The position numbers and the translations under genes were made by a program. 64,000 nt of DNA from Oceanospirillaceae bacterium (lineage in GTDB: Bacteria > Pseudomonadota > Gammaproteobacteria > Pseudomonadales > Balneatricaceae), in assembly GCA_013215505.1 (NCBI GenBank), contig JABSQZ010000012.1, positions 62,001 to 126,000 on the forward strand, given 5' to 3'. Of the stretch, positions 213 to 42,913 are shown piece after piece; position 1 is the first letter of the stretch; every line of letters starts with the position of its first letter. The notes under the pieces were generated by a model. It was not told the origin of the DNA. It saw nothing but the letters and a program-made list of their open reading frames with translations, and did not search any database.

Positions 213-1973
213 ATGATGACAGAGGGTTCAGACAAAAAACAACAACTATTGTCAGCAATTACTCAGAAATTTGGCGAGCAGTTTATCACTGAGCAGGTAG
301 GCTGTGGTAGGGTCCTGACCTTTTGGGTCGCACAGACACAGCTGCAACAAGTACTGTGTTATCTACGCGATGGACCAGATAAATATCTGATGTTAGTGGA
401 CCTTTACGCCGTAGATGAAAGGCTGCGTCAGCACACCAGCGATCAGCCTAACTGCGATTTTAGTATTATCTATCAACTGTTATCGGTGCAGCACAACTTT
501 GATATCAGGATAAAGCTGGCACTGATAGGTGATTACCCTACCGCTGCCAGTATCTCAACACTGTGGCAAAACGCCAATTGGTACGAGCGGGAAATATGGG
601 ACATGTACGGTATTGTCTTCACCGGACACCCACTGCTGAAGAGAATTTTGACCCCACCCACTTTTGTCGGTCACCCGCTGCGCAAAGAGTTCCCCTGTCG
701 CGCCACTGAACAACCGCCCTTTAGCATGAACGAAGAACAACTAGAAGCAGAACAGCAGGCACTTAAGTTTGACCCGGCTGACTGGGGCATGAGTCGCCAA
801 TCGGCGGACTCAGATTTTATGTATTTAAACCTCGGGCCCAACCACCCCAGTGTGCATGGGGTATTTCGCATAGCCTTGCAGCTCAACGGCGAGCGCATCA
901 TAGATGCAGCTCCCGATATAGGTTATCACCATCGCGGCGCGGAAAAGATCGCTGAGCGCCAGACCTGGCATGGTTTTATTCCCTACACCGATCGCATCGA
1001 CTACTTAGGTGGGGTGATGAACAACCTGCCCTATGTATTAGCCATAGAACAGATGGCCAAGATTGAGGTTCCCGAGAGAGCGCAATGTATCAGAGTGATG
1101 TTGTCAGAGTGTTTTCGGATTCTCAGTCATATGCTGTTTTACGGCACTTTTGCTCAAGATCTGGGCCAGCTTTCGACTATTTTCTACCTGTTTATCGACC
1201 GTGAAAAACTGTTCGGCATCATCGAGGCCATCACCGGGGCGCGTATGCACCCAAGCTGGTTCAGGATAGGGGGTGTCGCTCAGGATTTGCCTCAGGGTTG
1301 GGATAAAATGATCCGTGAATTCATCGATTATTTTCCCGCCCGTTTAGACGAATACGATGTACTGACCATGGAAAACTCCATCATAAAAAAGCGTACTGTC
1401 GGCATCGGTCAGTACAGCAGCAAAGAAGCTCTGGAATGGGGAGTCACAGGTGCAGGTTTACGAGCGACAGGTATGGATTTTGACTTGCGTAAAGCCCGTC
1501 CCTACAGCGGTTACCAGCAATATGAATTTGAAATCCCCACTGCCGACAACGGTGATTGTTACGACCGCTGTTGGGTGCGGGTACAGGAAATGCGCCAGAG
1601 CTTAAAAATTATCCGACAGTGCTTAGATAACATGCCAGCAGGTGCATATAAAGCCTCACATCCACTAACCACTCCGCCAATGATAGATAAAAGTAAGCAA
1701 GATATAGAAACTCAGATTCAACATTTTCTGAATGTCAGCTGGGGACCTGTGATGCCCCCAGCAGAATCCTTTGTCGCTGTGGAGGCCACTAAAGGGATTA
1801 ACGGTTATACCTTGTACAGTGATGGCTCCAATACCAGCTACAGGACTCGCATCAGAACACCTTCGTTTCCCCACTTGCAAATGATACCTCATCTGTCACG
1901 TGGGGTTTTGCTTCCAGACTTGATCGCTATTATTGCCAGTATCGATTTTGTTATGGCTGATGTAGACAGGTGA
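213..1973 (+). CDS. nuoCD: NADH-quinone oxidoreductase subunit C/D fusion (NuoCD)
   Basis: 586 residues. Roughly residues 1-175 are the NuoC (30 kDa) domain, with [12 protein letters not shown] and [10 protein letters not shown]. Residues 195-586 are the NuoD (49 kDa) domain, with [23 protein letters not shown] and the C-terminal [11 protein letters not shown]. The fused form is the arrangement seen in E. coli and many Gammaproteobacteria; separate C and D genes are usual elsewhere. NuoD and NuoB form the quinone site. Two ATGs stand side by side at 213 and 216, and a GAGG just upstream could serve either. NuoE follows after 4 bp. Confidence 0.97.
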
Positions 1974-1977
1974 CTTA

Positions 1978-2550
1978 ATGAAAAATGACCTTGTAAACCA
2001 ACAGCAGATACAAACTGACAAGCAGCAGTTGCAACAACTATTGTCGGTACAGGAAAAAAGCGAAATAGATCAGTTACTGGCTCACTATCCTCAGCCAGGA
2101 GGCGCCTGTATCGACGCGTTGGCGATAGTGCAAAAGTATCGCGGTTGGGTCAGCGATCAGGCCATCGCTGCACTGGCAGAACATATGGGTATTTCTCTGT
2201 CCGAGCTGGAATCGGTGGCCACTTTTTATAATCTGATTTTTCGCCTGCCAGTGGGCAGAGTGCTGATGCACCCCTGCAATGGCATCAGTTGTCAGTTATT
2301 AGGTTATAAAAAAATCCAACAGCAACTACAGACAGCACTGCAGATTCAAGAGGGTGAAACCTGTGCAGACGGACAAATTACTTTGATATCCCTGCCCTGT
2401 TTAGGAGCCTGCGATAAAGCCCCGGTGATGTTGGTCCGCGAAGCCATGGTCGATGGCCTGCCAGGCACTAGCAGCGAGAGTTTGCTGGTTAATCTGCACT
2501 GTTCAGAACTCGAACTGTTATTACAACAATTCAAGGAGAGTGCCGTATGA
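1978..2550 (+). CDS. nuoE: NADH-quinone oxidoreductase subunit E (NuoE)
   Basis: 190 residues, slightly longer than E. coli NuoE (166). It has the thioredoxin-like [2Fe-2S] fold of the NADH dehydrogenase module. The four ligands are visible as C100 and C105 (HPCNGISC) and C141 and C145 (LPCLGAC), holding cluster N1a. It pairs with NuoF. The start lies 4 bp after nuoCD, and the stop overlaps the nuoF start as ATGA, which suggests translational coupling. Confidence 0.95.
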   Translation: MKNDLVNQQQIQTDKQQLQQLLSVQEKSEIDQLLAHYPQPGGACIDALAIVQKYRGWVSDQAIAALAEHMGISLSELESVATFYNLIFRLPVGRVLMHPCNGISCQLLGYKKIQQQLQTALQIQEGETCADGQITLISLPCLGACDKAPVMLVREAMVDGLPGTSSESLLVNLHCSELELLLQQFKESAV

Positions 2551-3833
2551 ATGTCACTCAAGCGCCCTCTCTGCCGCTTACTCAGCATCTTAACCTACAG
2601 CAACCGTTGGATTTATCCGCCTACCGAGAACAGGGAGGCTATCTGGGATTCAGTGCTGCACTAGAGCAGAGCAGCGATGCTGTTTTGCAGATTATTAAAG
2701 ATTCAAACTTGCGTGGTCGCGGCGGTGCCGGATTTCCCACCGGTATGAAATGGAGTTTTGTACCCACAGTAACCGATAGCTCTGAGCCCAGATATTTAGT
2801 GGCAAATGCCGACGAGATGGAACCTGGTGCCTTCAAGGATCGCTGGTTAATGGAGGGGGCTCCGCATCAGCTGATCGAGGGTATGTTAATCGCCGCGCAC
2901 ACTATCGCGGCCAATGTCGGTTATATTTTTTTACGCAATGAATACACAATAGCGGCCAAACGCTTGCAACAAGCAATTGATGAGTGCAGAAGCGCCGGCT
3001 TACTGGGAAATAATATCCAAGGTTCAGCCATGAACTTTGATTTGCATATACACACCAGCGCCGGCCGTTATATCTGCGGAGAAGAGACAGCTTTAATTAA
3101 TGCCTTAGAAGGCAAACGTGCCATACCCAGAGCTAAGCCTCCTTTTCCGCAAGTGGCCGGGCTCTGGGGCAAACCCACCATCGTTAACAACGTGGAAACG
3201 TTTTATAACTTGCCCAACATAGTGTTATTTGGTGCCCAGTGGTATCAGTCGCTCGGCGCCCATGAAGATGCTGGCACTAAAATTTACGGAGTCAGTGGTC
3301 GGGTGAAACATCCAGGCCTATGGGAGCTGCCAATGGGCACTAGCTTGCGCGAGATTATTGAGCAACGCGCCGGAGGCATGAGCGATGGCTATCAATTACG
3401 GGCATATCAGCCAGGGGGCGGCTCCACGGACTTTTTGTTGCCTGAGCATTTGGACACACCGATGGACTACAACAGTATCAGCGCGGTAGGCAGTCGCATG
3501 GGCACCGGCACTGTAATTGTCTTAGACGATAAAAATTGCCCCATAGATATGATCTTGAACTTAGTCTCGTTCTTTGCACAGGAGTCCTGCGGCTGGTGTA
3601 CCCCTTGCCGGGAGGGCTTACCCAGTGCCAGTTATCTACTCTCGGAGATAGAAAATGGCCGGGGGAAAATGTCTGATTTAGATTACCTGGAAGATATTCT
3701 GCAACTGGTCAGTTTTGGTAATACTTTTTGTGCACTGGCCCCAGGGGCGGCAGAACCTCTACAGAGCGGACTGAAGTTTTTTCAGCGCGAGTTTGAACAA
3801 CACATCCAGCAGCAATGCTGTCCATACAAATGA
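2547..3833 (+). CDS. nuoF: NADH-quinone oxidoreductase subunit F (NuoF), NADH/FMN-binding
   Basis: 428 residues, close to the family length (E. coli 445). The N-terminal half has the glycine-rich FMN/NADH signature RGRGGAGFPTGMKW. The C-terminal half carries the N3 [4Fe-4S] ligands C348, C351, C354 (SCGWCTPC) and C395 (FCALAPGA). It takes electrons from NADH through FMN into the iron-sulfur chain. The ATG at 2547 overlaps the nuoE stop and is preceded by AAGGAGAG at about 2532. A 71-bp gap separates it from nuoG, one of the larger gaps in the operon. Confidence 0.96.
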   Translation: MNVTQAPSLPLTQHLNLQQPLDLSAYREQGGYLGFSAALEQSSDAVLQIIKDSNLRGRGGAGFPTGMKWSFVPTVTDSSEPRYLVANADEMEPGAFKDRWLMEGAPHQLIEGMLIAAHTIAANVGYIFLRNEYTIAAKRLQQAIDECRSAGLLGNNIQGSAMNFDLHIHTSAGRYICGEETALINALEGKRAIPRAKPPFPQVAGLWGKPTIVNNVETFYNLPNIVLFGAQWYQSLGAHEDAGTKIYGVSGRVKHPGLWELPMGTSLREIIEQRAGGMSDGYQLRAYQPGGGSTDFLLPEHLDTPMDYNSISAVGSRMGTGTVIVLDDKNCPIDMILNLVSFFAQESCGWCTPCREGLPSASYLLSEIENGRGKMSDLDYLEDILQLVSFGNTFCALAPGAAEPLQSGLKFFQREFEQHIQQQCCPYK

Positions 3834-3904
3834 GTCATGGTCATGGCATTTACATAGATAGTGACCAAAGTAAAAGTTAGTTTCTTAAATCATGGGGTTG
3901 AAGC

Positions 3905-6670
3905 ATGCCAGAGATCAACATAGACGGCAAAACTTACCAGGTTGCAGCAGGAAAAAACCTGCTGCAGGCTTGTCAGGAGTTAAAATTGCAGCTGCCCTAT
4001 TTTTGTTGGCATCCAGCGTTAGACTCTGTTGGCTCCTGTCGTCAATGTGCCGTGTTAATGTTTCAAAACGATGAGGATACCCGCGGTCGTATCACTATGG
4101 CTTGTATGACCGCCGTTGCCGACGGACAAAGGTTTTCCATTGAGGCAAGCAAGGCACAAAAGTTTCGTCAGCTCTGTATAGAAGCCACCATGACCGGACA
4201 CCCTCATGATTGCCCGGTATGCGAGGAAGCCGGCGAATGTCATTTGCAGGACATGACCTTGATCAGTGGGCATATAGAACGTCGCTTTCAGGGGCCTAAG
4301 AGAACCCATAAAAACCAATATCTCGGCCCTTTCATCAATCATGAAATGAATCGCTGTATCGCCTGCTACCGCTGCGTGCGCTATTACCGGGACTACTCTG
4401 GCGGCACTGACTTGAATGTATTTGCCAGTCGTAACAACGTCTATTTTGGTCGCGCCGAAGCGGGAATATTGGACAGTGAGTTCAGCGGTAACTTAGTGGA
4501 AGTTTGCCCTACCGGTGTGTTCACCGACAAAACTTATAGCCAGCACTACTCACGCAAGTGGGATTTGCAATCTTCCCCGGCTGTCTGTGTGCACTGCAGT
4601 GTCGGCTGCAATATATTCCCTGCAGAGCGCGATGGCATTCTTAGAAGAGTAACTAACCGATATCACCCGGATCTCAACGGGCATTTTCTCTGCGACAGGG
4701 GGCGTTTCGGCTATGATTTTGTCAACCATGCAAAGCGCACTGAGCACGCCTGGCAGCGCAATAACAGCAGCCAAACTACCGAACAGTTAACTAGCCAACA
4801 GGCTCTGGATAGCTTTAGCTCTTACCTGGGAAATACCGAACAGCTCCTAGCTATAGGTTCCTCGCGCAGTTCATTAGAAAATAATTTTTGTCTGCAGAGC
4901 TTAGTCGGCGCTGAGAATTTTTACTCGGATAATAGCGCTCAGCTAGAAACACAATTACACAACTTGTTGTGTTACTACCGAGATATTCAGCCGAGTTCAG
5001 ACTTGAAAAAATTGGAGGCCAGTGACGCTGTTTTATTAATAGGCGCAGACGTCACCCAGAGCGCACCGCGTATTGCATTGTCGATCCGGCAGATGATTAA
5101 GAACGCCGGCATAGCCAAAGCAGCCACTATTGGCGTGGCTTATTGGAGTGCCGCTGAAGTACAAAATATCAGGCAGGATCTCAAATCGCCACTGCATATA
5201 ATCAGCAACCACAGTACCCGCTTAGACGATGTTGCCTGCAGCATCGATAACAGTCACCCTGCGCAACAACTTGCCTTAATCAATAAAATTTGCAGTTATT
5301 TGTCTGAAGATAAGTCCAGCGATGCTGAAGTTTCTATACAGGAAAACTCCATTGCAGCCAGAGCTAAGGCTATTTCTCAGGATCTGTTGCGGGCAGAAAA
5401 GCCCTTTATCGTCACCGACATCCATGCTGGTCAATCTGTTGAGTTGTTTGTGGCCAGCTTGAAATTGTCTGCAATTCTCTATCGACAGAATAAACATGCC
5501 GGGCTGATCTGTGCTGTTCCTTGGGCCAACAGTTTGGGTTTGGCGCTACTCAATAGCCGCCAGCAAAATTTAGATTCTGTGCTGCAAAGGTTAGAGCAGC
5601 GAACAGTAAAGACCTTAGTCATTTTAGAAACTGATCTGTATCGCTATTGCCCGACAGAAAAGATGGACCTATTACTGGCCGATGTGGCCAATATTATTGT
5701 CCTGGATCACTTGATCACCCCCAGCGCCGAACAGGCAGATTTACTGCTGCCTAGCGCCAGTTTCGCCGAGCAACACGGTAGTTGGGTCAATTTTGAAGCG
5801 CGATTACAAAACTCAGTAAAGTGTTTCACACCCGCGAAACAGCGACGCCCGGCCCATAGATGGCTGACAGCGAACACCCCTTTTCACAGTATCGTTAAAG
5901 ACTTATCGGGTGTTGCTGATTGCCTGAGTGATCTACCGTCTCTGTACTCAATTCAATCTGCAGATTTTCACAGCGCCCGCAAAACAGTCCGCGAATCCGG
6001 ACGAACTGCATTACACTCTTATATAGATATCAAAGATATACAGCCAGAAATTGATCTCGATTCTAATTACCAGCACTCTCAGGAAGGGGTTGCCAGTAAT
6101 CTTGATGCCAGCCAATCACCGGCCTATATCTGGTCTCCGGGCTGGAATTCCAGCGAGTCCCTGAACCAGTTTCAGCACAGCGTATCAGGTGCGATACAAG
6201 GGGCCCACCCTGGGTTGCTGCTCTTTGCTAAGGGCCAAGCAGATAGCACTTGTGTCGCAGAAAACCAGCCGGCTGACTCAATCAAAGATCCGCCAGCGGA
6301 CAGTAAAAGCCTGCTCAGAGCATTGCCCTATCAACATATTTTTGCCGATGAAGAACTTTCCAGTTACGTCGCCAATATCAAGCAGCTCAGCCCAACAGAT
6401 AGCATTAAAATCAATGCTTTGCAGGCACAGCGTTTAGGACTTGTCGCCAACCAGCTGCTGGATTATTGTTTTGCCGCTGCCAACGGATCATTGATTGAAA
6501 ACAATCAGACACAGCGCACAGCTGCATTGCCATTATCGATCGACGACAGTATTGCCACTGGCGTTGTATTACTGCCCGCACTGCTATTGCAGCGCGCGGC
6601 TGTCAGCGGTGATTGTTGGCTTAAATTGGCAGCTATCGACAGCGCTGCCGAGGAGTCCGCTGATGCATGA
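3905..6670 (+). CDS. nuoG: NADH-quinone oxidoreductase subunit G (NuoG)
   Basis: 921 residues (E. coli 908). All iron-sulfur ligands can be placed: [2Fe-2S] N1b at C34, C45, C48, C67; N5 at H99, C103, C106, C112; N4 at C151, C154, C157, C201; and the off-path cluster N7 at C228, C231, C235, C263. N7 is absent from many NuoG proteins but present in E. coli. The rest is a molybdopterin-oxidoreductase-like fold without evident cofactor use; residues 640-921 are poorly conserved. The last codons overlap the nuoH start by 8 bp. Confidence 0.95.
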   Translation: MPEINIDGKTYQVAAGKNLLQACQELKLQLPYFCWHPALDSVGSCRQCAVLMFQNDEDTRGRITMACMTAVADGQRFSIEASKAQKFRQLCIEATMTGHPHDCPVCEEAGECHLQDMTLISGHIERRFQGPKRTHKNQYLGPFINHEMNRCIACYRCVRYYRDYSGGTDLNVFASRNNVYFGRAEAGILDSEFSGNLVEVCPTGVFTDKTYSQHYSRKWDLQSSPAVCVHCSVGCNIFPAERDGILRRVTNRYHPDLNGHFLCDRGRFGYDFVNHAKRTEHAWQRNNSSQTTEQLTSQQALDSFSSYLGNTEQLLAIGSSRSSLENNFCLQSLVGAENFYSDNSAQLETQLHNLLCYYRDIQPSSDLKKLEASDAVLLIGADVTQSAPRIALSIRQMIKNAGIAKAATIGVAYWSAAEVQNIRQDLKSPLHIISNHSTRLDDVACSIDNSHPAQQLALINKICSYLSEDKSSDAEVSIQENSIAARAKAISQDLLRAEKPFIVTDIHAGQSVELFVASLKLSAILYRQNKHAGLICAVPWANSLGLALLNSRQQNLDSVLQRLEQRTVKTLVILETDLYRYCPTEKMDLLLADVANIIVLDHLITPSAEQADLLLPSASFAEQHGSWVNFEARLQNSVKCFTPAKQRRPAHRWLTANTPFHSIVKDLSGVADCLSDLPSLYSIQSADFHSARKTVRESGRTALHSYIDIKDIQPEIDLDSNYQHSQEGVASNLDASQSPAYIWSPGWNSSESLNQFQHSVSGAIQGAHPGLLLFAKGQADSTCVAENQPADSIKDPPADSKSLLRALPYQHIFADEELSSYVANIKQLSPTDSIKINALQAQRLGLVANQLLDYCFAAANGSLIENNQTQRTAALPLSIDDSIATGVVLLPALLLQRAAVSGDCWLKLAAIDSAAEESADA

Positions 6671-7604
6671 ACTAGTGACACCAGTGATTATATTGCTGAT
6701 TCTGCTGCTCAGCGCCGCCACATTGACCTGGGTTGAGCGGCGTATTTTGGGTCTGTGGCAGGACAGGTACGGACCCAACCGGGTTGGCCCTTTTGGCTTG
6801 CTGCAAGTAGTTGCGGACATGATCAAACTATTTACCAAAGAGGATTGGATACCCCCCTTTGCCGACAAAGTGATTTTTGTTATCGCCCCTATGATAGTCA
6901 TGATCATGATGTTGCTGGGGTTCGCGATTATCCCCTTTAGTCCGCAGTTGCAAATTGTCGATTTTGATAATGGTCTGCTGTTTTTTCTGGCAATCAGCTC
7001 ACTGTCTGTATACAGCGTAATGCTGGCAGGCTTTTCCTCCAACAGCAAATATGCATTATTTGGTGCGCTGCGAGCCACCGCGCAGATGATTAGTTACGAA
7101 GTGTTTATGGGGCTGTCAGTGATGGGCGTGGTTATTTTGAGTGGCAGTTTCAGCTTGCGTGAGATAGTCGAAGCACAATCGGAACAATGGTTTTTTATCC
7201 CGCAGATAGTCGCGCTGGGGATTTTTATCATCGCCGGTATCGCCGAGAGCCACCGCGCTCCCTTTGACCTTCCCGAGGCGGAGCATGAGATTGTCGCCGG
7301 TTTTCACACTGAGTATTCCAGTATGAAATTTGGCATGTTCTTTATCGGTGAGTATTTAGGGGTGATATTGATCTCGGCGATGATAGTGACTTTGTTTTTC
7401 GGCGGCTGGCAGGGCCCTTTCCTGCCGCCAATACTGTGGTTTTTATTAAAGACCAGTGTCTTTGTGCTGTTCTTTATTTTGCTGCGCGCCGCAACGCCCA
7501 GACCCAGATACGATCAGTTAATGTCTTTCGGCTGGAAGTACATGCTGCCGCTGGCGCTGCTTAATCTATTGCTGACCGGGGCCTATCGCTTATGGACCCA
7601 ATAA
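6663..7604 (+). CDS. nuoH: NADH-quinone oxidoreductase subunit H (NuoH)
   Basis: 313 residues with about eight membrane helices. NuoH is the membrane subunit that forms the quinone-entry channel. Diagnostic stretches are WVERRILGLWQDRYGPNRVGP, KEDWIPPFADKVIF, the acidic loop RAPFDLPEAEHEIVAGFHTE and RPRYDQLMSFGWK. The open frame extends upstream to 6495, but ATG 6663 is chosen because it gives the family's N-terminus (MHELVTPVII), has GAGGAG about 10 bases upstream, and leaves only an 8-bp overlap with nuoG. Confidence 0.95.
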   Translation: MHELVTPVIILLILLLSAATLTWVERRILGLWQDRYGPNRVGPFGLLQVVADMIKLFTKEDWIPPFADKVIFVIAPMIVMIMMLLGFAIIPFSPQLQIVDFDNGLLFFLAISSLSVYSVMLAGFSSNSKYALFGALRATAQMISYEVFMGLSVMGVVILSGSFSLREIVEAQSEQWFFIPQIVALGIFIIAGIAESHRAPFDLPEAEHEIVAGFHTEYSSMKFGMFFIGEYLGVILISAMIVTLFFGGWQGPFLPPILWFLLKTSVFVLFFILLRAATPRPRYDQLMSFGWKYMLPLALLNLLLTGAYRLWTQ

Positions 7605-7631
7605 TATTACCCGATATGTGGAGTTTGACAC

Positions 7632-8147
7632 ATGAAAAGTCAACTTAAGACACTGGCCAAGGTTTTAAAACACAGCTTTAGCTCATTAGATACAGTGCAA
7701 TATCCGGAGCAACAGCCCTACCTGGCACCGCGCTATCGCGGCAGAATAGTTCTCACCAGAGATCCCGACGGCGTGGAGCGCTGCGTCGCCTGTAATTTAT
7801 GCGCCACAGTCTGTCCGGTTGATTGCATCGCCCTGCAAAAAACCGAACTGGAAGATGGCCGCTGGATCGCACAAACCTTTGATATAAATTTTGCCCGCTG
7901 CATTATGTGTGGTTTTTGTGAGGAGGCCTGCCCTACTCACGCTATCCAACTGACCCCAGATTTTGAAATGGCCGAATACGATCGACAGAACTTATTGTAC
8001 CGCAAAGAGCATTTACTCATCGATGGCACCGGCAAGTATCACGATTACAATTTCTATCAGATCAGTGGCAAGCAAATAGCGGGGAAAGCTAAAGGTGCAG
8101 CCGACAACGAGTTACCGCCGGTTGATATCAAGAGCCTGCTACCATGA
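7632..8147 (+). CDS. nuoI: NADH-quinone oxidoreductase subunit I (NuoI), 2x[4Fe-4S] ferredoxin
   Basis: 171 residues (E. coli 180). Two four-cysteine motifs hold clusters N6a and N6b: C51, C54, C57, C61 ([11 protein letters not shown]) and C90, C93, C96, C100 ([11 protein letters not shown]). The subunit carries electrons from NuoG to N2 in NuoB. An amphipathic N-terminal stretch probably lies on the membrane. The stop overlaps the nuoJ start as ATGA. Confidence 0.96.
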
Positions 8148-8662
8148 TTGATACTCTGTTTTATATTGCCGCAGCGGTTGCTCTACTAGCGGCAGTGCTC
8201 ACGGTCACGCGGCATAATGCGGTGCACGCCTTGCTGTACTTAGTGATTACTATGCTGGCGATATCACTGATTTTCTTTTTACTCGGTGCCGCCTTTGCCG
8301 CAGCGCTGCAAATCATTGTCTACGCTGGCGCGATCATGGTGTTGTTTGTATTTGTCACTATGATGTTGCATCAAGGTGACCTGAGTATTCGCCAAGAGGC
8401 GCAATTATATCGACCCTCCCAGTCATTTGGCGCCATCTTATTGAGCTGTATTCTACTACTGGAAACTTTATATTTACTGGCCCCGGTGCTATTTGCACAA
8501 CAGGCAGCTGCCAATGCATTAAATATAATCGGCGCTAAACAAATAGGGTTGCAACTTTTTGGTCCCTACCTGCTACTGGTAGAAATAGCAGCGCTATTGT
8601 TACTGACTGCATTGATAGGTGCTTTCCATATAGGAAGACGCCACCAGGAGAGTCCGACATGA
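8144..8662 (+). CDS. nuoJ: NADH-quinone oxidoreductase subunit J (NuoJ)
   Basis: 172 residues, five predicted membrane helices. It shows the ND6-family stretches [20 protein letters not shown] and [21 protein letters not shown]. It is a proton-channel membrane subunit of complex I. The start overlaps nuoI (ATGA). Its own stop overlaps an ATG at 8659 that belongs to a duplicated copy of the nuoJ/nuoK junction (see 8585-8766), so the authentic nuoK start is 101 bp downstream rather than directly overlapping. Confidence 0.94.
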
Positions 8663-8766
8663 TTTTTCCAGTGCAGTTGAGGGTACCAATAGCAGCGCTA
8701 TTACTACTGACTGACTTAACAAGTGCATTTCATACAGGAAGACGCCACCAGGAGAGTCCGACATGA
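8585..8766 (+). repeat. Diverged tandem duplication of the nuoJ 3' end and nuoK start site (period 104 bp)
   Basis: 8585-8662 and 8689-8766 are direct repeats offset by exactly 104 bp. Both begin atagcagcgctatt, and both end in an essentially identical stretch of about 30 bases that holds gacgccacc, the ribosome site AGGAG and the ATGA start/stop overlap. The middle parts have diverged by scattered substitutions. Copy 1 is the real nuoJ end; copy 2 lies directly before nuoK and supplies its ribosome site. Weak similarity extends some 20 bp further upstream. Confidence 0.9.
8659..8766 (+). CDS. Putative 35-residue mini-ORF made by the nuoJ/nuoK junction duplication
   Basis: The duplicated ATG at 8659 opens a 35-codon frame. 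Its last 25 residues (ending [12 protein letters not shown]) copy the NuoJ C-terminus ([12 protein letters not shown]) with few changes. The frame ends in TGA overlapping the nuoK ATG, so an unbroken chain of ATGA couplings nuoJ, mini-ORF, nuoK is kept. The start has the same AGGAG site that serves nuoK. It may be translated only as a coupling device. No function is known, and expression is inference. Confidence 0.4.
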   Translation: MIFPVQLRVPIAALLLLTDLTSAFHTGRRHQESPT

Positions 8767-9068
8767 TCCCCTTAGAACACATACTGATTTTCAGTATTAG
8801 CTTGTTCGTCATTGGTGTGTTTGGAATTTTAGTACGCCGCAACTTACTGTTTATTTTGATTTCCATCGAAATAATGCTCAACGCCGTTGCTGTGCTGTTC
8901 GTGGCTGCAGGCAATTATCACAATAATGCCGATGGTCAGATTATGTATTTATTGATTCTTACCTTAGCCGCCTCAGAAGTCGCTGTAGGTCTGGGATTGG
9001 TGATTCAAATGTATCGGCGCACGCTGTCTCTGGATGTCGACCAGCTGGCAAGCATGAACGAGCAATAG
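8763..9068 (+). CDS. nuoK: NADH-quinone oxidoreductase subunit K (NuoK)
   Basis: 101 residues, three membrane helices, matching the family length. It has the ND4L signature RRNLLFILISIEIMLNA with the conserved membrane glutamate, and a second glutamate in LTLAASEVAVGLGL; both lie on the proton path of complex I. The start ATG at 8763 has AGGAG 8 bases upstream, inside the second copy of the 104-bp repeat. nuoL follows after 13 bp. Confidence 0.95.
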   Translation: MIPLEHILIFSISLFVIGVFGILVRRNLLFILISIEIMLNAVAVLFVAAGNYHNNADGQIMYLLILTLAASEVAVGLGLVIQMYRRTLSLDVDQLASMNEQ

Positions 9069-9081
9069 TCAGGAGATAAAA

Positions 9082-10953
9082 ATGCAAGATCAATATTTAT
9101 CACAGTTGTTAATGGCAGTAGTACTACTGCCATTATTGAGTGCAACACTGTTGATGCTTGCGGCGCTGTTCTCTGTCAGTTTGAAAAATGTTTTGGTAGC
9201 CACTTTAGCAGTAGGTGCTATTGGGGGCTCGGCTATTTGCGTCATATTACTCAATTTACAACTGGCAGACGCCGGCAACTTTAGTTTTAGCTATGTCTAT
9301 GCCAACTGGTTAAAGGTCGGCAGTTTCTCGGCGGTATTTGGTGTCTACCTGGACGGCCTGTCACTGGTGATGATCTCCATCGTCAGCGGCGTCGGTTTCC
9401 TGATTCACCTCTACTCTGTTGGTTTTATGGCTAAAGACCAGGATTTTCAGCGATTTTTTATCTACTTGAATCTATTTGTTGCCGCAATGTTAGTGCTAGT
9501 GTTAGCAGATAACTTGCTGATGTTATTTTTGGGTTGGGAGGGGGTTGGACTCTGCAGTTATCTACTGATTGGTTTCTGGCACCAAAAACATGCCAACAGC
9601 CTGGCCGCCAATAAAGCCTTTATCATGACCCGTATCGGCGATACCGCCATGGCCATCGGTCTGCTGTTACTGTTCATGCTGCTGGGAACTCTAGATATTC
9701 AACAAATCCAACTTCAGGCAGAGCAGCTTTGGCCACTACAAAGTGATCGGGGGCCCGCGTTTGATAGCGTCACTATTTGCGCGCTACTATTGCTGGCAGG
9801 CGCGGTCGGTAAATCCGGGCAGTTGCCACTGCAATCCTGGCTGCCAGATGCAATGGCGGGCCCAACTCCAGTCAGTGCGCTTATCCATGCTGCGACTATG
9901 GTGACCGCCGGGGTCTATTTGGTTGCCCGTTTTCATCAACTATTTTCACTCTCGCCACTGGCAATGCAGGTAGTGGCGGCAATAGGTGCCATTACCCTGA
10001 TTCTTGCCGCAACTGCAGCGCTGGTGCAACGAGATGTGAAACGTATCTTGGCTTATTCTACCATCAGCCAAATTGGCTACATGTTTTTAGCGCTGGGGGC
10101 CGGTGCCTATTCTGCGGCGGTCTTTCATTTAATGACCCATGCCTTTTTTAAGGCGTTATTATTCCTGGCCGCCGGCGCACTCATCTATTCCATGCAGCAT
10201 CAACACAATATTTTTCGAATGGGCGGGCTGCGCAGTAAACTGCCGTTCATTTGTGTCTGTTTCTTTTTTGGCTGTGCGGCCCTGGCAGCTCTGCCATTGA
10301 TGTCAGGCTTTTTCAGCAAAGAATTAATTTTGCAAAAGTTATTAGACAGAGAAATGTACGGCTTTTGGCTAGTGGCTCTTAGCGGGGCTTTTATCACCGC
10401 CTTCTATAGTTTCAGATTGTTCTTTGTGGTCTTCTTTGGCAGTACTGGGCAATTACCTGATGCTAAACCAACGACTAACATGAAAATTGCCTTGTCAGTA
10501 TTAGTGCTGCTGACTATTTTTGGCGGCATTGCACCGAGCGGGCTCAGTGCAGTCTTTGCAGAGTCAGAGCTGGCTAGTGATCACAACCTGGCCATTATTT
10601 TATTCACTATTGCCGTACCTCTTAGCGCTATCGCTGTATGTTGGTTTATCTTCAAAAAACAATTGTTTAACATCAGTATCAAGTCTGACAAGCTCAAGGG
10701 GCTACACAACTTTCTGTACAGCGGCTGGGGCTTCGATCAACTCTATAACGCTCTGTTTGTCCGACCTTTTATTAAAGCGACTCACAGTAATAAAAAAGAT
10801 TTTATCGATAGTTTCTACACTGGCTTGTGCCAAATTAGCCAGCTCAGCCATCAATACTTAAATAAACTGCAAAATGGCCAACTTAGATGGTACAACGCCA
10901 GCTTAGTACTGTTCAGTATCGCAGCAATGACATTTTTATTTACCGGACAGTAA
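9082..10953 (+). CDS. nuoL: NADH-quinone oxidoreductase subunit L (NuoL), antiporter-like
   Basis: 623 residues (E. coli 613). It contains the proton-translocating antiporter-like core: LMLFLGWEGVGLCSYLLIGFW with the key glutamate, GAVGKSGQLPLQSWLPDAM with the key lysine, and LIHAATMVTAGVYL. The C-terminal part corresponds to the long lateral helix and last anchor. The ribosome site caggag is 8 bases before ATG 9082. Its last bases and the following gap are the start of the repeated junction at 10957-11280. Confidence 0.96.
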   Translation: MQDQYLSQLLMAVVLLPLLSATLLMLAALFSVSLKNVLVATLAVGAIGGSAICVILLNLQLADAGNFSFSYVYANWLKVGSFSAVFGVYLDGLSLVMISIVSGVGFLIHLYSVGFMAKDQDFQRFFIYLNLFVAAMLVLVLADNLLMLFLGWEGVGLCSYLLIGFWHQKHANSLAANKAFIMTRIGDTAMAIGLLLLFMLLGTLDIQQIQLQAEQLWPLQSDRGPAFDSVTICALLLLAGAVGKSGQLPLQSWLPDAMAGPTPVSALIHAATMVTAGVYLVARFHQLFSLSPLAMQVVAAIGAITLILAATAALVQRDVKRILAYSTISQIGYMFLALGAGAYSAAVFHLMTHAFFKALLFLAAGALIYSMQHQHNIFRMGGLRSKLPFICVCFFFGCAALAALPLMSGFFSKELILQKLLDREMYGFWLVALSGAFITAFYSFRLFFVVFFGSTGQLPDAKPTTNMKIALSVLVLLTIFGGIAPSGLSAVFAESELASDHNLAIILFTIAVPLSAIAVCWFIFKKQLFNISIKSDKLKGLHNFLYSGWGFDQLYNALFVRPFIKATHSNKKDFIDSFYTGLCQISQLSHQYLNKLQNGQLRWYNASLVLFSIAAMTFLFTGQ

Positions 10954-10956
10954 CAG

Positions 10957-11280
10957 GCAGGCAAACAGCTAATAAAAATATAAGGATAGATGGATGTTAA
11001 CGGCGTTGATTTCAATTTTACTCTACAGACTGATGCCCTGCTTGCCTTGATCAGTGGATCACAGCACTAACATTTTTATTTTCCGGATTGTAATAGTCGG
11101 GGAAACAGCAAAAAATATAAGGATAGATGGATGTTAATGGAGTTGATTTTAATTTTACTCTACAGACTGATGCCCTGCTTGCCTTGATCAGTGGATCACA
11201 TATTACAATCCGGAGTCGGGGAAACAGCCAAAAAATATAAGGATAGATGGATGTTAACGGAGTTGATTTCAATTTTACTC
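10957..11280 (+). repeat. Three tandem copies of the nuoL/nuoM junction
   Basis: A unit containing a nuoL 3'-like tail, the ribosome site ataaggatagatgg and the first codons of nuoM occurs three times, with ATGs at 10994, 11131 and 11251 (spacings 137 and 120 bp). Copies 1 and 2 differ by only a few bases over about 90 bp; copy 3 is the functional nuoM start. In copies 1 and 2 the NuoM-like frame (MLTALISILL, MLMELILILL) hits TGA after 18 codons. A shifted frame from 10990 and 11127 stays open for 26 and 37 codons. An inverted segment is also present: 11082-11095 and 11201-11214 are exact reverse complements. Confidence 0.92.
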
Positions 11281-12714
11281 ATAGGTGCCCTACTCGCCTG
11301 GATCAGTGAATCACTGCAACTGCAGCTGCCTAAATGGATTGCTATAGCAACTTTGCTTAGTGCATTTTACCCACTGCGTCAGCTGCTAATGGAACTTGAT
11401 ACTGGTTCAATGCAGGTATGGCTGGTAAACGAGAGCATTGAATGGATCCCCAGATTTAACATCCGTTTCCACTTAGCCTTAGATGGGCTAAGTCTGTTGT
11501 TGGTTTTATTAACTCTTTTAATGGGTCTGATTGCCGTGTTAGCGGCCTGGAAAGAAATTAGCTATAAACCCGGATTTTTTTACTTTAATTTGCTCTGCTC
11601 GCTGGCTGGCGTAATTGGCGTATTCTGCGCCTTAGATCTGTTCCTGTTTTTTGTCTTCTGGGAGGTCATGTTAGTCCCTATGTACCTGCTGATAGCGGTT
11701 TGGGGCTACGAAAATCGTCGCTATGCGGCGATGAAGTTCTTTCTCTTTACCCAAGCCGGTGGTTTGATCATGCTGTTGAGCATTTGCGCACTGGTATTAC
11801 TGCACTACCAAAACAGTGGCGAAATCACCTTTAACTATTTTGCATTGATGCAACACCAATTGTCTGAACAAGCGGCGTTCTGGGTGATGCTGGGCTTTTT
11901 TATTGCCTTTGTTATCAAACTGCCGATTGTACCTTTCCACAATTGGCTTCCCGATGCCCATACTGAGGCACCGACTGCAGTCAGCGTTATCTTAGCCGCG
12001 GTACTGCTTAAAACTGGCGGCTATGGATTACTGCGCTTTGTATTGCCGCTGTTCCCTGATGCCTCTGTCGAGATTGCCCCGGTGGTCATGGCCATTGCTG
12101 CTATCAGCATTATTTACGGCGCTCTGATGGCCTTTTCACAGCAAGACTTAAAAAGACTCGTTGCTTACTCCAGTGTCTCACATATGGGATTTGTACTTCT
12201 GGGATGTTACGCATTCACGGCGCAAGCCTGGCAGGGAGCGGTGTTGCAAATGCTAGCTCACGGTGTCAGCACCGCCGCGCTGTTTGCCTTAGTGGGGGCG
12301 ATACAGTATCGCTACCACACTCGTGATTTAGCGCAATTGGGCGGACTCTGGCAATGTCTTCCCAAGCTCAGTGGCATGTTGTTATTTTTTGTTGTCGCCT
12401 CTCTGGGTATGCCCGGTCTGGGTAATTTTGTCGCTGAGTTTTTAGTTCTGGTGGGCAGTTTCAGTACGTACCCGAAATTGACCATGATGGCGGCAACAGG
12501 GTTGATATTGGCGGCAATTTACTCACTTAAAATTGCCCATCAAACATTGTTTGGCACACTCAAACTACAACCTAGTATTGATCTGGATCGCAGAGAAGTG
12601 TTGATGATGTTTTCAATGGTGGTGCTGCTGATTTGGCTGGGATTGCATCCCCAGCCAATAATAGACTTGGCACAACAGAGCTTAAACCAGTTATCTATAG
12701 GAGCTAAATTATGA
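11251..12714 (+). CDS. nuoM: NADH-quinone oxidoreductase subunit M (NuoM), antiporter-like
   Basis: 487 residues (E. coli 509). ND4-family features are FFVFWEVMLVPMYLLIAVWG with the conserved glutamate, FVIKLPIVPFHNWLPDAHTE with the channel lysine, and KRLVAYSSVSHMGFV. The frame is open back to 11191, but ATG 11251 is chosen because AAGGA lies 9 bases upstream and the N-terminus (MLTELISILLIGALL) matches the family. The two upstream copies of this start region are non-productive. The stop overlaps nuoN (ATGA). Confidence 0.94.
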   Translation: MLTELISILLIGALLAWISESLQLQLPKWIAIATLLSAFYPLRQLLMELDTGSMQVWLVNESIEWIPRFNIRFHLALDGLSLLLVLLTLLMGLIAVLAAWKEISYKPGFFYFNLLCSLAGVIGVFCALDLFLFFVFWEVMLVPMYLLIAVWGYENRRYAAMKFFLFTQAGGLIMLLSICALVLLHYQNSGEITFNYFALMQHQLSEQAAFWVMLGFFIAFVIKLPIVPFHNWLPDAHTEAPTAVSVILAAVLLKTGGYGLLRFVLPLFPDASVEIAPVVMAIAAISIIYGALMAFSQQDLKRLVAYSSVSHMGFVLLGCYAFTAQAWQGAVLQMLAHGVSTAALFALVGAIQYRYHTRDLAQLGGLWQCLPKLSGMLLFFVVASLGMPGLGNFVAEFLVLVGSFSTYPKLTMMAATGLILAAIYSLKIAHQTLFGTLKLQPSIDLDRREVLMMFSMVVLLIWLGLHPQPIIDLAQQSLNQLSIGAKL

Positions 12715-14165
12715 TTGCCGCTGTGCTACCTTGGATAGTCATCAGTGCGACAGCGCTGATAGTGATGTTATTGACTGCGATCAAGCGCGATCATTTATAC
12801 ATTAGTATAATTACCTCGCTAGGTTTATTCATTGCCATGATAGTTCAGACAATCAAAATTGAAACAACAGCTTACGAAAATAATTTAATATCAATTAACA
12901 GTACTGTAGCACTGTTGTCGGCGCTGTTAATACTGCTGGCGCTACTACTGAGTAGCTTGCTCTATCCCTGGCTAAAAAAAGCCCAGGAACCCAGTGAAGA
13001 ATATTACCTGCTGTTTCTGCTGGCAACTCAAGGGGCTTTAATCGTTGCAGCCAGTAGCCATTTCGCCAGTTTCTTTTTGGGTCTGGAGCTAATGAGTTTG
13101 TCACTGGTTGCTATGGTCGCGTACGTAGATAAGAGCAGCAAAGCACTGGAGGCGGGGATTAAGTACTTTGTGCTTTCGGCACTGGCTTCAGCCTTTATGT
13201 TAATGGCCATCGCCATCATCTACCTCTACAGTGGCACTTTAAATTTCAGTGAGATATTAACCCAGTTGAGCTCAAATCAAGTGGTTGCCGAAAATGGCAA
13301 TAACCTTGTCCTCAGCACCGCCATTGTTTTACTGTTAGTTGGTGTTGCTTTTAAATTATCACTGGCCCCCTGCCACTTATGGGTGGCAGACTTGTTTGAG
13401 GGAGCACCTCTGGCCAGTGCGGCATTTTTGGCAACACTGGCCAAAGCGGCCATTTTTATTCTGCTAATCAGGCTCTTCGAAGACACCCATTGGTATCAGC
13501 AGAGCTCAGTGATCACTATTTTATCAATGATCGCAGCGGCATCGATGCTGATCGGAAACTTGTTGGCGCTGTTACAAAATAACATTTTACGCTTACTGGC
13601 CTATTCCTCTATTGCGCACTTTGGCTATATTTTACTGGCGTTACTGGCTATAGCACCCAGTTCACCGCTGGCAGAACAAAACAACTTGAGCAATGAAGCC
13701 GCCATCTTTTACTTAATTGCCTACTTAGTCACTGTGTTAGGCATCTTTGCAATACTGATGTTACTGATTGATAACCAGCAGCTAAAAGATTTTAAAATCT
13801 GCAGCTTTAAAGGCTTATTTTGGCACAGCCCAGGTACTGCTATGGTGTTGGCAGTGTTACTGCTATCGTTGGCAGGAATCCCGTTAACTATTGGTTTTGT
13901 AGGAAAATTCTATTTGACTTTAGCAGCGGTTAACAGTCAGTTGTGGTGGTTATTAGCAGTATTAATCGTCAGCAGCATTATCGGCTTATTTTACTATTTA
14001 CGGATTATTTTAAGCATGCTGGAAAAAACAGAGCAGCAGGGTAATACCGCGCCTGCCTCGATATTGAATATTGCCATTTTAGCACTGATTTCTTTAGCGG
14101 TGATCGGACTCGGGGTGTTTCCAGGACAGATGGCACTGGTTATTCAGCGCATCGTTGTTTCCTAG
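12711..14165 (+). CDS. nuoN: NADH-quinone oxidoreductase subunit N (NuoN), antiporter-like
   Basis: 484 residues (E. coli 485), about 14 membrane helices. ND2-family features are FFLGLELMSLSLVAMVAY with the conserved glutamate, FKLSLAPCHLWVADLFEGAP with the channel lysine, and LRLLAYSSIAHFGYILL. It is the last nuo gene. Its start overlaps nuoM by 4 bp, and nhaD follows 58 bp downstream on the same strand. Confidence 0.95.
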   Translation: MIAAVLPWIVISATALIVMLLTAIKRDHLYISIITSLGLFIAMIVQTIKIETTAYENNLISINSTVALLSALLILLALLLSSLLYPWLKKAQEPSEEYYLLFLLATQGALIVAASSHFASFFLGLELMSLSLVAMVAYVDKSSKALEAGIKYFVLSALASAFMLMAIAIIYLYSGTLNFSEILTQLSSNQVVAENGNNLVLSTAIVLLLVGVAFKLSLAPCHLWVADLFEGAPLASAAFLATLAKAAIFILLIRLFEDTHWYQQSSVITILSMIAAASMLIGNLLALLQNNILRLLAYSSIAHFGYILLALLAIAPSSPLAEQNNLSNEAAIFYLIAYLVTVLGIFAILMLLIDNQQLKDFKICSFKGLFWHSPGTAMVLAVLLLSLAGIPLTIGFVGKFYLTLAAVNSQLWWLLAVLIVSSIIGLFYYLRIILSMLEKTEQQGNTAPASILNIAILALISLAVIGLGVFPGQMALVIQRIVVS

Positions 14166-42688: not shown

Positions 42689-42806
42689 AAATCTAGCTCC
42701 ATAGGGGATGTTTAGGGGCTCTAAATTATTAAACTTTCAGCTTTAAAGCAATAAAGATAAGCAATTGCGCTGCTTAGTTTTCCTATAGGGGGTATAGGGA
42801 AAGGGG

Positions 42807-42841
42807 GAAGTTGGAAGTTGGAAGTTGGAAGTTGGAAGTTG
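42807..42841. repeat. Five tandem copies of a 7-base unit
   Basis: gaagttg is repeated five times without change. It lies in the intergenic region between the thioesterase terminator and the alcohol dehydrogenase promoter side. The unit is a microsatellite likely to vary in copy number. Confidence 0.85.
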
Positions 42842-42913
42842 GATAGCATAAACGAGTGATTTATTATTGTAAAAGTTGTGCACAAGAGCATATATAAATA
42901 ATACAAACTGCTG

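Follow-up and report, generated by a model that had tools for sequence, protein, structure and literature searches.

What purpose, if any, is served by a gene junction that presents the start site of the same gene three times? This question is raised by the boundary between nuoL and nuoM in the 64-kb window studied here (the window being the whole stretch of DNA that was analysed), and a second duplicated junction, that between nuoJ and nuoK, is present in the same gene cluster. The window, whose positions are used throughout, belongs to the genome that we designate G000 and contains what we take to be the nuo operon nuoCD-E-F-G-H-I-J-K-L-M-N (213-14165); the names of nuoCD to nuoI are assumed by us from gene order and sequence, and Pfam matches were obtained for the products of the five genes tested, NuoJ, NuoK, NuoL, NuoM and NuoN. 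Four genes, all on the plus strand, frame the two junctions: an intact nuoJ (8144-8662; PF00499), nuoK with 101 codons (8763-9068; PF00420), an intact nuoL (9082-10953, stop codon at 10951-10953; PF00361/PF00662), and nuoM with 487 codons (11251-12714; PF00361). Just within nuoL, a perfect 13-nt inverted repeat without a loop is found (9110-9135); elsewhere in the window (42806-42843), the motif GGAAGTT is repeated 5.4 times without error.

The stop codon of nuoL and the ATG of nuoM (11251) are separated by 297 nt. An earlier note, made from the sequence alone, had placed repeats of this junction in the region 10957-11280; the repeats are real, but the array is wider and reaches from about 10918, where the last 36 nt of nuoL (10918-10953) form the start of the repeated region, to about 11320. 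Likewise, the junction had been described as present in three copies, which holds for the ribosome-binding site and nuoM start (10974-11063, 11111-11200, and 11231-11320, all direct repeats on the plus strand with the spacings of 137 and 120 bp that had been given) but not for the nuoL tail, which occurs only twice (10918-10953 and 11058-11093, plus strand). The near identity claimed for the first two junction copies amounts to 97% over 90 nt. As the note had also stated, the ATGs at 10994 and 11131 lead into frames that end after 18 codons with a TGA (decoy ORF 1, 10994-11050; decoy ORF 2, 11131-11187; both plus strand), and only the third ATG opens nuoM. An insertion of 5 nt in each decoy shifts the NuoM frame; at a distance of 120 nt, decoy 2 alone keeps the register of nuoM, decoy 1 (257 nt away) being out of register.

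The two nuoL-tail copies, aligned from 10918 and 11058, are 79% identical over 58 nt, and the frame of the second copy has none of the usual start codons. The nuoL tail is absent before the third start; in its place stands a 14-nt inverted remnant (11201-11214, minus strand), the exact reverse complement of positions 11082-11095. The same AAGGA motif and start context are present at all three sites, each of which, including that of the real nuoM, also has a second ATG in another frame 4 bases upstream. From the stop codon of decoy 1, 80 nt follow before the next nuoM-type ATG, and from that of decoy 2, 63 nt before the ATG of nuoM, distances that are 4 nt shorter if the out-of-frame upstream ATG is counted. 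With two tails and three starts enclosed by a complete nuoL and a complete nuoM, both matching their Pfam families, the locus has the make-up of a tandem junction duplication.

When the tail of each of the 11 nuo genes was compared with up to 400 nt of its own downstream region, only nuoL (score 27.5) and nuoJ (score 61) were found to have a copy; the remaining genes scored 9.0-11.5. As a chance control, 709 ORF tails were each paired with ten downstream regions of other ORFs, and no mismatched pair reached a score of 22. A mobile or dispersed repeat was rejected as the source of the array, the best of 26 other matches in the same genome having E = 0.09 and the plasmids giving no match. An RNA element was rejected as well: the region 8500-11500 matched no Rfam family at E values of up to 1, and the three nuoM-type starts (81-nt stretches) folded no better than shuffled sequences (z = -0.01, -0.40, and 0.94).

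Related genomes, each species being represented by one, allowed the copies to be placed in time. NuoL matches were found in all seven genomes of the genus; close matches (at least 66% identity) occur in G000, in G003 ('Osedax' symbiont bacterium Rs2_46_30_T18), in G006 (Osedax symbiont Rs2, ASZI01000086.1), in G002 (Oceanospirillaceae bacterium DT_75, JABSRB010000054.1), and in G005, and the best matches in G001 and G004 are 29% identical. In G003, nuoJ, nuoK, the duplication between them and most of nuoL lie on one contig (C24, MABF01000013.1), and the end of nuoL together with nuoM lies on a second (C288). A tree of the NuoL, NuoK and NuoJ proteins groups G000 with G006 (support 0.62), in conflict with the DNA identity of nuoL, which pairs G000 with G003 (0.880 vs. 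0.833).

A single decoy is found in G003, again of 18 codons and with the 5-nt insertion seen in G000, together with one additional nuoL tail. This decoy is 88% identical to decoy 1 of G000 as compared to 77% to the real nuoM start of G003 itself. Since the copy and its insertion are shared, one duplication is older than the split between G000 and G003. One nuoL/nuoM duplication is therefore inherited, and the other is seen only in G000 among the genomes compared. The 155-nt nuoL/nuoM spacer of G006 (L020 3101-3360) has no decoy and no detectable resemblance to the copies of G000 and G003, so that G000, G003, and G006 have 2, 1, and 0 decoys, respectively. A remnant of the duplication in G006 was considered and dropped, as nothing was detectable by shuffle-tested scores in searches of its spacer for a tail copy (score 9.0; 414 of 1000 shuffles scored at least as high) or a head copy (8.0; 782 of 1000), or in comparisons with the spacers of G000 (12.0; 87 of 1000) and G003 (11.5; 78 of 1000). 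Single nuoL/nuoM junctions without decoys, with gaps of +60 and +38 nt, are present in G002 and G005. Exchange between the copies within a genome was also considered, but the differences in spacer identity are too slight for a conclusion (36/42 for the two spacers of G003, 35/43 columns for the first two of G000, and 31-33 with 1-4 gaps across species).

Taken together, these data make it quite probable in our judgement that the nuoL/nuoM array is tolerated debris of tandem duplication rather than a regulator. It would have been produced by two or more tandem duplications of 120-140 bp of DNA spanning the gene junction. A duplication of this kind would be flanked by an intact upstream gene on one side and an intact downstream gene on the other, so that its cost would be low and drift could keep it; because both genes remain whole, junctions should tolerate duplications that most gene interiors do not. 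The inner copies would then decay, and the 5-nt insertion, the early stop, the loss of one nuoL-tail copy, and the inverted 14-nt scrap are what such decay would look like. Synthesis of NuoM would accordingly begin at the third start, the first two yielding peptides of at most 18 residues, and neither decoy start appears to have a conserved regulatory role. Two observations sit less easily with debris and could hint at use: the decoys are 18 codons long in G003 and in both copies of G000, and no other stretch of the copies is as well conserved as the part containing the ribosome-binding site and start. Since the AAGGA motif of the real start recurs at the decoys, ribosomes probably bind the decoy starts, and with a ribosome-binding site and start nearly the same as those of nuoM the decoys could possibly compete with it for ribosomes, as judged from the sequence.

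These same features are the ones that speak for regulatory decoys, as the earlier note had suggested, at which ribosomes would initiate, make 18-residue peptides and then either reinitiate at nuoM or be lost, thereby lowering or tuning NuoM synthesis: the AAGGA motif and start context are identical in kind at all three sites, and the 18-codon length is common to the decoy of G003 and both copies of G000. Against this stand the decoy numbers of 2, 1, and 0 in three close relatives, the decoy-free spacings in G002 (+60 nt) and G005 (+38 nt), and starts without structure beyond that of shuffled sequences; at none of the three (81-nt stretches) was the ribosome-binding site found to be held in a structure. 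Both decoy stop codons lie farther than about 20 nt from the start that follows, and a stop-start distance of about 20 nt already nearly abolished reinitiation in the six pairs from E. coli and H. volcanii described in the relevant passages of PMC10666635, as against 80 and 63 nt here. Given the lack of conservation of the architecture and the excessive distances, we reject regulation by the decoys as the main reading and regard it as unlikely; the proposed tuning of NuoM by reinitiation finds no support in these data.

Two further explanations concern the origin of the copies. A single junction could have been tripled by mis-assembly, and G000 is indeed a draft genome of 52 contigs, just as the assembly of G003 breaks inside nuoL (C24 ends at residue 568, and C288 resumes at residue 566). 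Nevertheless, the G003 assembly, which is a separate one, contains the older nuoL/nuoM duplication (C288) and the nuoJ/nuoK duplication (C24), and the copies differ from each other by substitutions, indels, and an inverted piece, so that an assembly error carries the least probability of all the explanations considered here, a very slight one. Moreover, the G000 stretch lies within a contig of 187,539 bases, and each repeat unit is shorter than ordinary sequencing reads. The extra copies could instead be foreign DNA, acquired from a relative by homeologous recombination rather than duplicated in place, a notion to which the second nuoL-tail copy lends some colour by reading as a plausible variant of the NuoL end. 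This copy, however, resembles by eye both the nuoL tail of G003 and the copy in that genome, as expected if it was inherited, and tail copies occur at several unrelated junctions; we hold a foreign origin to be very unlikely. Duplication in place followed by decay is thus the reading that we retain for the nuoL/nuoM array.

The second duplicated junction, to which the earlier note had also pointed, is real: positions 8682-8767 repeat positions 8578-8663 with 86% identity, giving two copies each of the nuoJ tail and the nuoK start. The view that this operon underwent two separate junction duplications, one of which recently acquired another copy, is thereby borne out, and the related genomes help to date them, the nuoJ/nuoK duplicate being the older. 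The nuoJ/nuoK duplicate forms a 35-codon ORF (8659-8766, plus strand) that begins with NuoK-like residues and ends with a NuoJ-like tail. It is present in G000, G003, and G006 (none of 1000 shuffles reached the score in any of them), is open in all three (35, 34, and 35 codons, respectively), and is joined to its neighbours in the same manner in each: its ATG overlaps the TGA of nuoJ, and its TGA overlaps the ATG of nuoK, by 4 nt (ATGA) in both cases. The motif AGGAG precedes both the start of the duplicate frame and that of nuoK in these three genomes. G002 and G005 have no duplicate; there, nuoJ and nuoK overlap by 4 nt at a single junction.

The distance thus inserted between nuoJ and nuoK is unusual. 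In a survey of 49 loci (48 distinct; 30 from the order, five from the genus, and 14 from the family, with starts chosen by rule), gaps of 97-100 nt were found only in G000, G003, and G006, among the 48 distinct loci and the order matches listed (244 genomes of the order sampled, 66 matched, 30 loci listed). A gap of more than 90 nt occurs in four of the 48 loci, namely the three of this clade and that of a distant member of the order (L232, G248; about 300 nt), and the remaining gaps range from -11 to +42 nt.

One explanation of the duplicate is that it encodes a functional small protein, for example an additional piece of complex I. The 34-35-codon frame is kept in three genomes, it has by origin a NuoK-like start and a NuoJ-like tail, and two of its three dN/dS values fall below 0.6. 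These values (0.56 for G000-G006, 0.41 for G000-G003, and 0.97 for G006-G003, over 34-35 codons) are, nonetheless, far above those of nuoJ (0.055-0.087) and nuoK (0.037-0.061), the amino acids are poorly conserved, and the best-kept end is the one that overlaps the ribosome-binding site of nuoK. Selection for a small protein is weak by dN/dS, and we consider such a product highly improbable, marginally more so than a foreign origin of the nuoL/nuoM copies. Under neutrality, simulated on a star tree from three guessed ancestors and at assumed indel rates, with the last 18 nt and the initial ATG held constant, the probability that all three sequences stay open and in frame was 0.088-0.185 without indels (three sequences, compared post hoc), and 0.026-0.058, 0.0098-0.0194, and 0.0044-0.0078 at 0.02, 0.05, and 0.1 indels per substitution, respectively. 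These figures are suggestive, and no more, of a frame kept for the passage of ribosomes rather than for its product.

The nuoJ/nuoK duplicate may act as a ribosome relay that preserves translational coupling. In the passages of PMC10666635 on sequence requirements, the final 15 nt of the upstream gene were enough for reinitiation in two E. coli pairs, so that a copied overlap would carry all that is needed to pass ribosomes on twice; one pair is described there as still reinitiating well over 14-15 nt. We tentatively put forward a proposal that we judge to be possible, though rather less probable than its failure: copying a junction with a 4-nt overlap would create, in a single event, a short frame that has a site for reinitiation at both ends; the nuoJ/nuoK "relay ORF" would rescue coupling across an otherwise prohibitive 100-nt gap as its amino acids drift; and the copy of the nuoL/nuoM junction, which is non-overlapping in the outlying congeners, would be free to decay. 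The inner copies of a non-overlapping junction would decay, and the frame of an overlapping one would be retained. We infer the translation of the short frames at both junctions, their coupling and the reason for their retention from their sequences.

The occurrence of such copies was surveyed in 1.264 Mb of G000 (the window and 60 stretches of 20 kb), in G003 (20 contigs and the two nuo stretches), in G002, and in G008 by comparing the last 120 nt of each ORF with the 400 nt downstream (score of at least 24). Tail copies were found for 11 of 1040 ORFs in G000, two of them being the window cases that had drawn our attention, and a control with five mismatched pairs per ORF passed 1 of 5200 pairs (0.2 expected per 1040). 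G003 had four of 118 (one of them nuoJ, and three on one contig), G002 none of 319, and G008 one of 336. Copies of ORF heads upstream numbered 8/999, 0/116, 0/302, and 4/316 in G000, G003, G002, and G008, with 0.2, 0, 0, and 0.6 expected. The genes upstream of the G000 tail copies include, by Pfam, those for CobN, pyruvate kinase, a 2-oxoacid dehydrogenase acyltransferase, SAICAR synthetase, a NUDIX protein, and an EamA transporter. Additional tail duplications of G000 are at L174, L096, L101, L181, L088, and L080:16741-17643, and the 18-kb contig C4 of G003 (L190) carries three.

Junction duplication is general in the G000 genome; its restriction to junctions and its enrichment in this lineage are unproven. 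Pieces taken from the middle of genes in G000 (one per gene of at least 900 nt) gave no copy among 459 at a score of at least 24, and one at 22 (tails 11/1040 vs. mid-gene 0/459, Fisher p = 0.022). In an ungapped scan, 13 of the 18 repeat segments of G000 (800 kb) were at boundaries or intergenic and five intragenic, the intragenic share being 3/12 in G002 and 4/19 in G008; boundary repeats numbered nine in 800 kb of G000, one in 400 kb of G002, and five in 400 kb of G008. Enrichment in the lineage is not established by comparisons with G002 and G008 (p = 0.077-0.50): for tails, p = 0.077 against G002 and 0.31 against G008, or 0.12 against G002 without the window (9/992 vs. 0/319), and for heads, p = 0.50 against G008. 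Pooling G000 with G003 (15/1158) and G002 with G008 (1/655) gave p = 0.015, in a pool that includes the window, the nuoJ copy of G003 and three hits on one G003 contig.

Another copied junction of G000 is that of cobN/cobQ (L075:18397-18652, corresponding to G000:C1:198397-198652, minus strand), recognized by tail and head matches. The frame running from the copied start to the copied tail is open for 33 codons in G000 and 31 in G006 (L147) and does not overlap the start of the next gene. In G004, G002, and G005 only about 37-55 nt separate the tail match from the head match, leaving no room for a copy; G001 was matched by the head only, and G003 by neither. A general contrast, in which coupled junctions keep their frames and uncoupled ones decay, is clouded by this open, non-overlapping frame in G000 and G006. 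At L080:13247-13480 (minus strand), the start of a gene that we presume to be hydantoinase-like is duplicated upstream of itself in G000; the flanking matches overlap in G003, which has no second copy, and are 33 nt apart in G006 and 119 nt apart in G000.

Of the two junctions in the nuo operon, that of nuoJ/nuoK is the more interesting, the nuoL/nuoM array being most likely debris. The latter cautions against assuming that start sites repeated within an operon have a regulatory function. Should the nuoJ/nuoK frame prove to be a relay, it would show how ribosome hand-over between the genes of an operon survives an insertion, and how neighbouring genes can give rise, ready-made, to short intergenic ORFs that are retained because they are translated rather than for what they encode. 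In that case the operon would amount to a natural experiment on how coupling constrains spacer DNA, and would reveal a route to small intergenic ORFs.

Tandem duplication followed by decay is a general notion for close direct repeats in bacterial genomes, and the nuo copies resemble it in being arranged head-to-tail, in diverging, and in having suffered deletions. They differ from plain tandem repeats in that each unit extends across the boundary between two operon genes, with the result that a ribosome-binding site and a start were copied too, and in that one inner nuoL/nuoM copy has an inverted scrap in place of the nuoL tail. None of the papers among the matches listed in our literature search describes a junction duplication in the nuo operon, which does not imply that none exists, and the passages on small intergenic ORFs in PMC11188072 do not treat an origin from junction duplication. 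Translational coupling by termination-reinitiation at 4-nt overlaps is described in passages of PMC10666635 and PMC6728339. The overlap of nuoJ and nuoK by 4 nt in G002 and G005 is of this type, and the duplicate keeps a 4-nt overlap at both of its ends; unlike the known coupled pairs, nuoJ and nuoK have between them a short third frame, recognized here by its sequence, that is itself a copy of the junction. In the mgtCBRU operon of Salmonella, the intergenic mgtQ of 8 codons frees the mgtB ribosome-binding site from an inhibitory stem-loop, according to the passages of PMC8092293 on this element. Like the nuo frames, mgtQ is a small ORF between two genes of an operon, one that those passages describe as translated and as affecting the downstream gene; in contrast to it, folding of the nuoL/nuoM starts (81-nt stretches) revealed no such structure, and the nuo frames arose as copies of their neighbouring genes.
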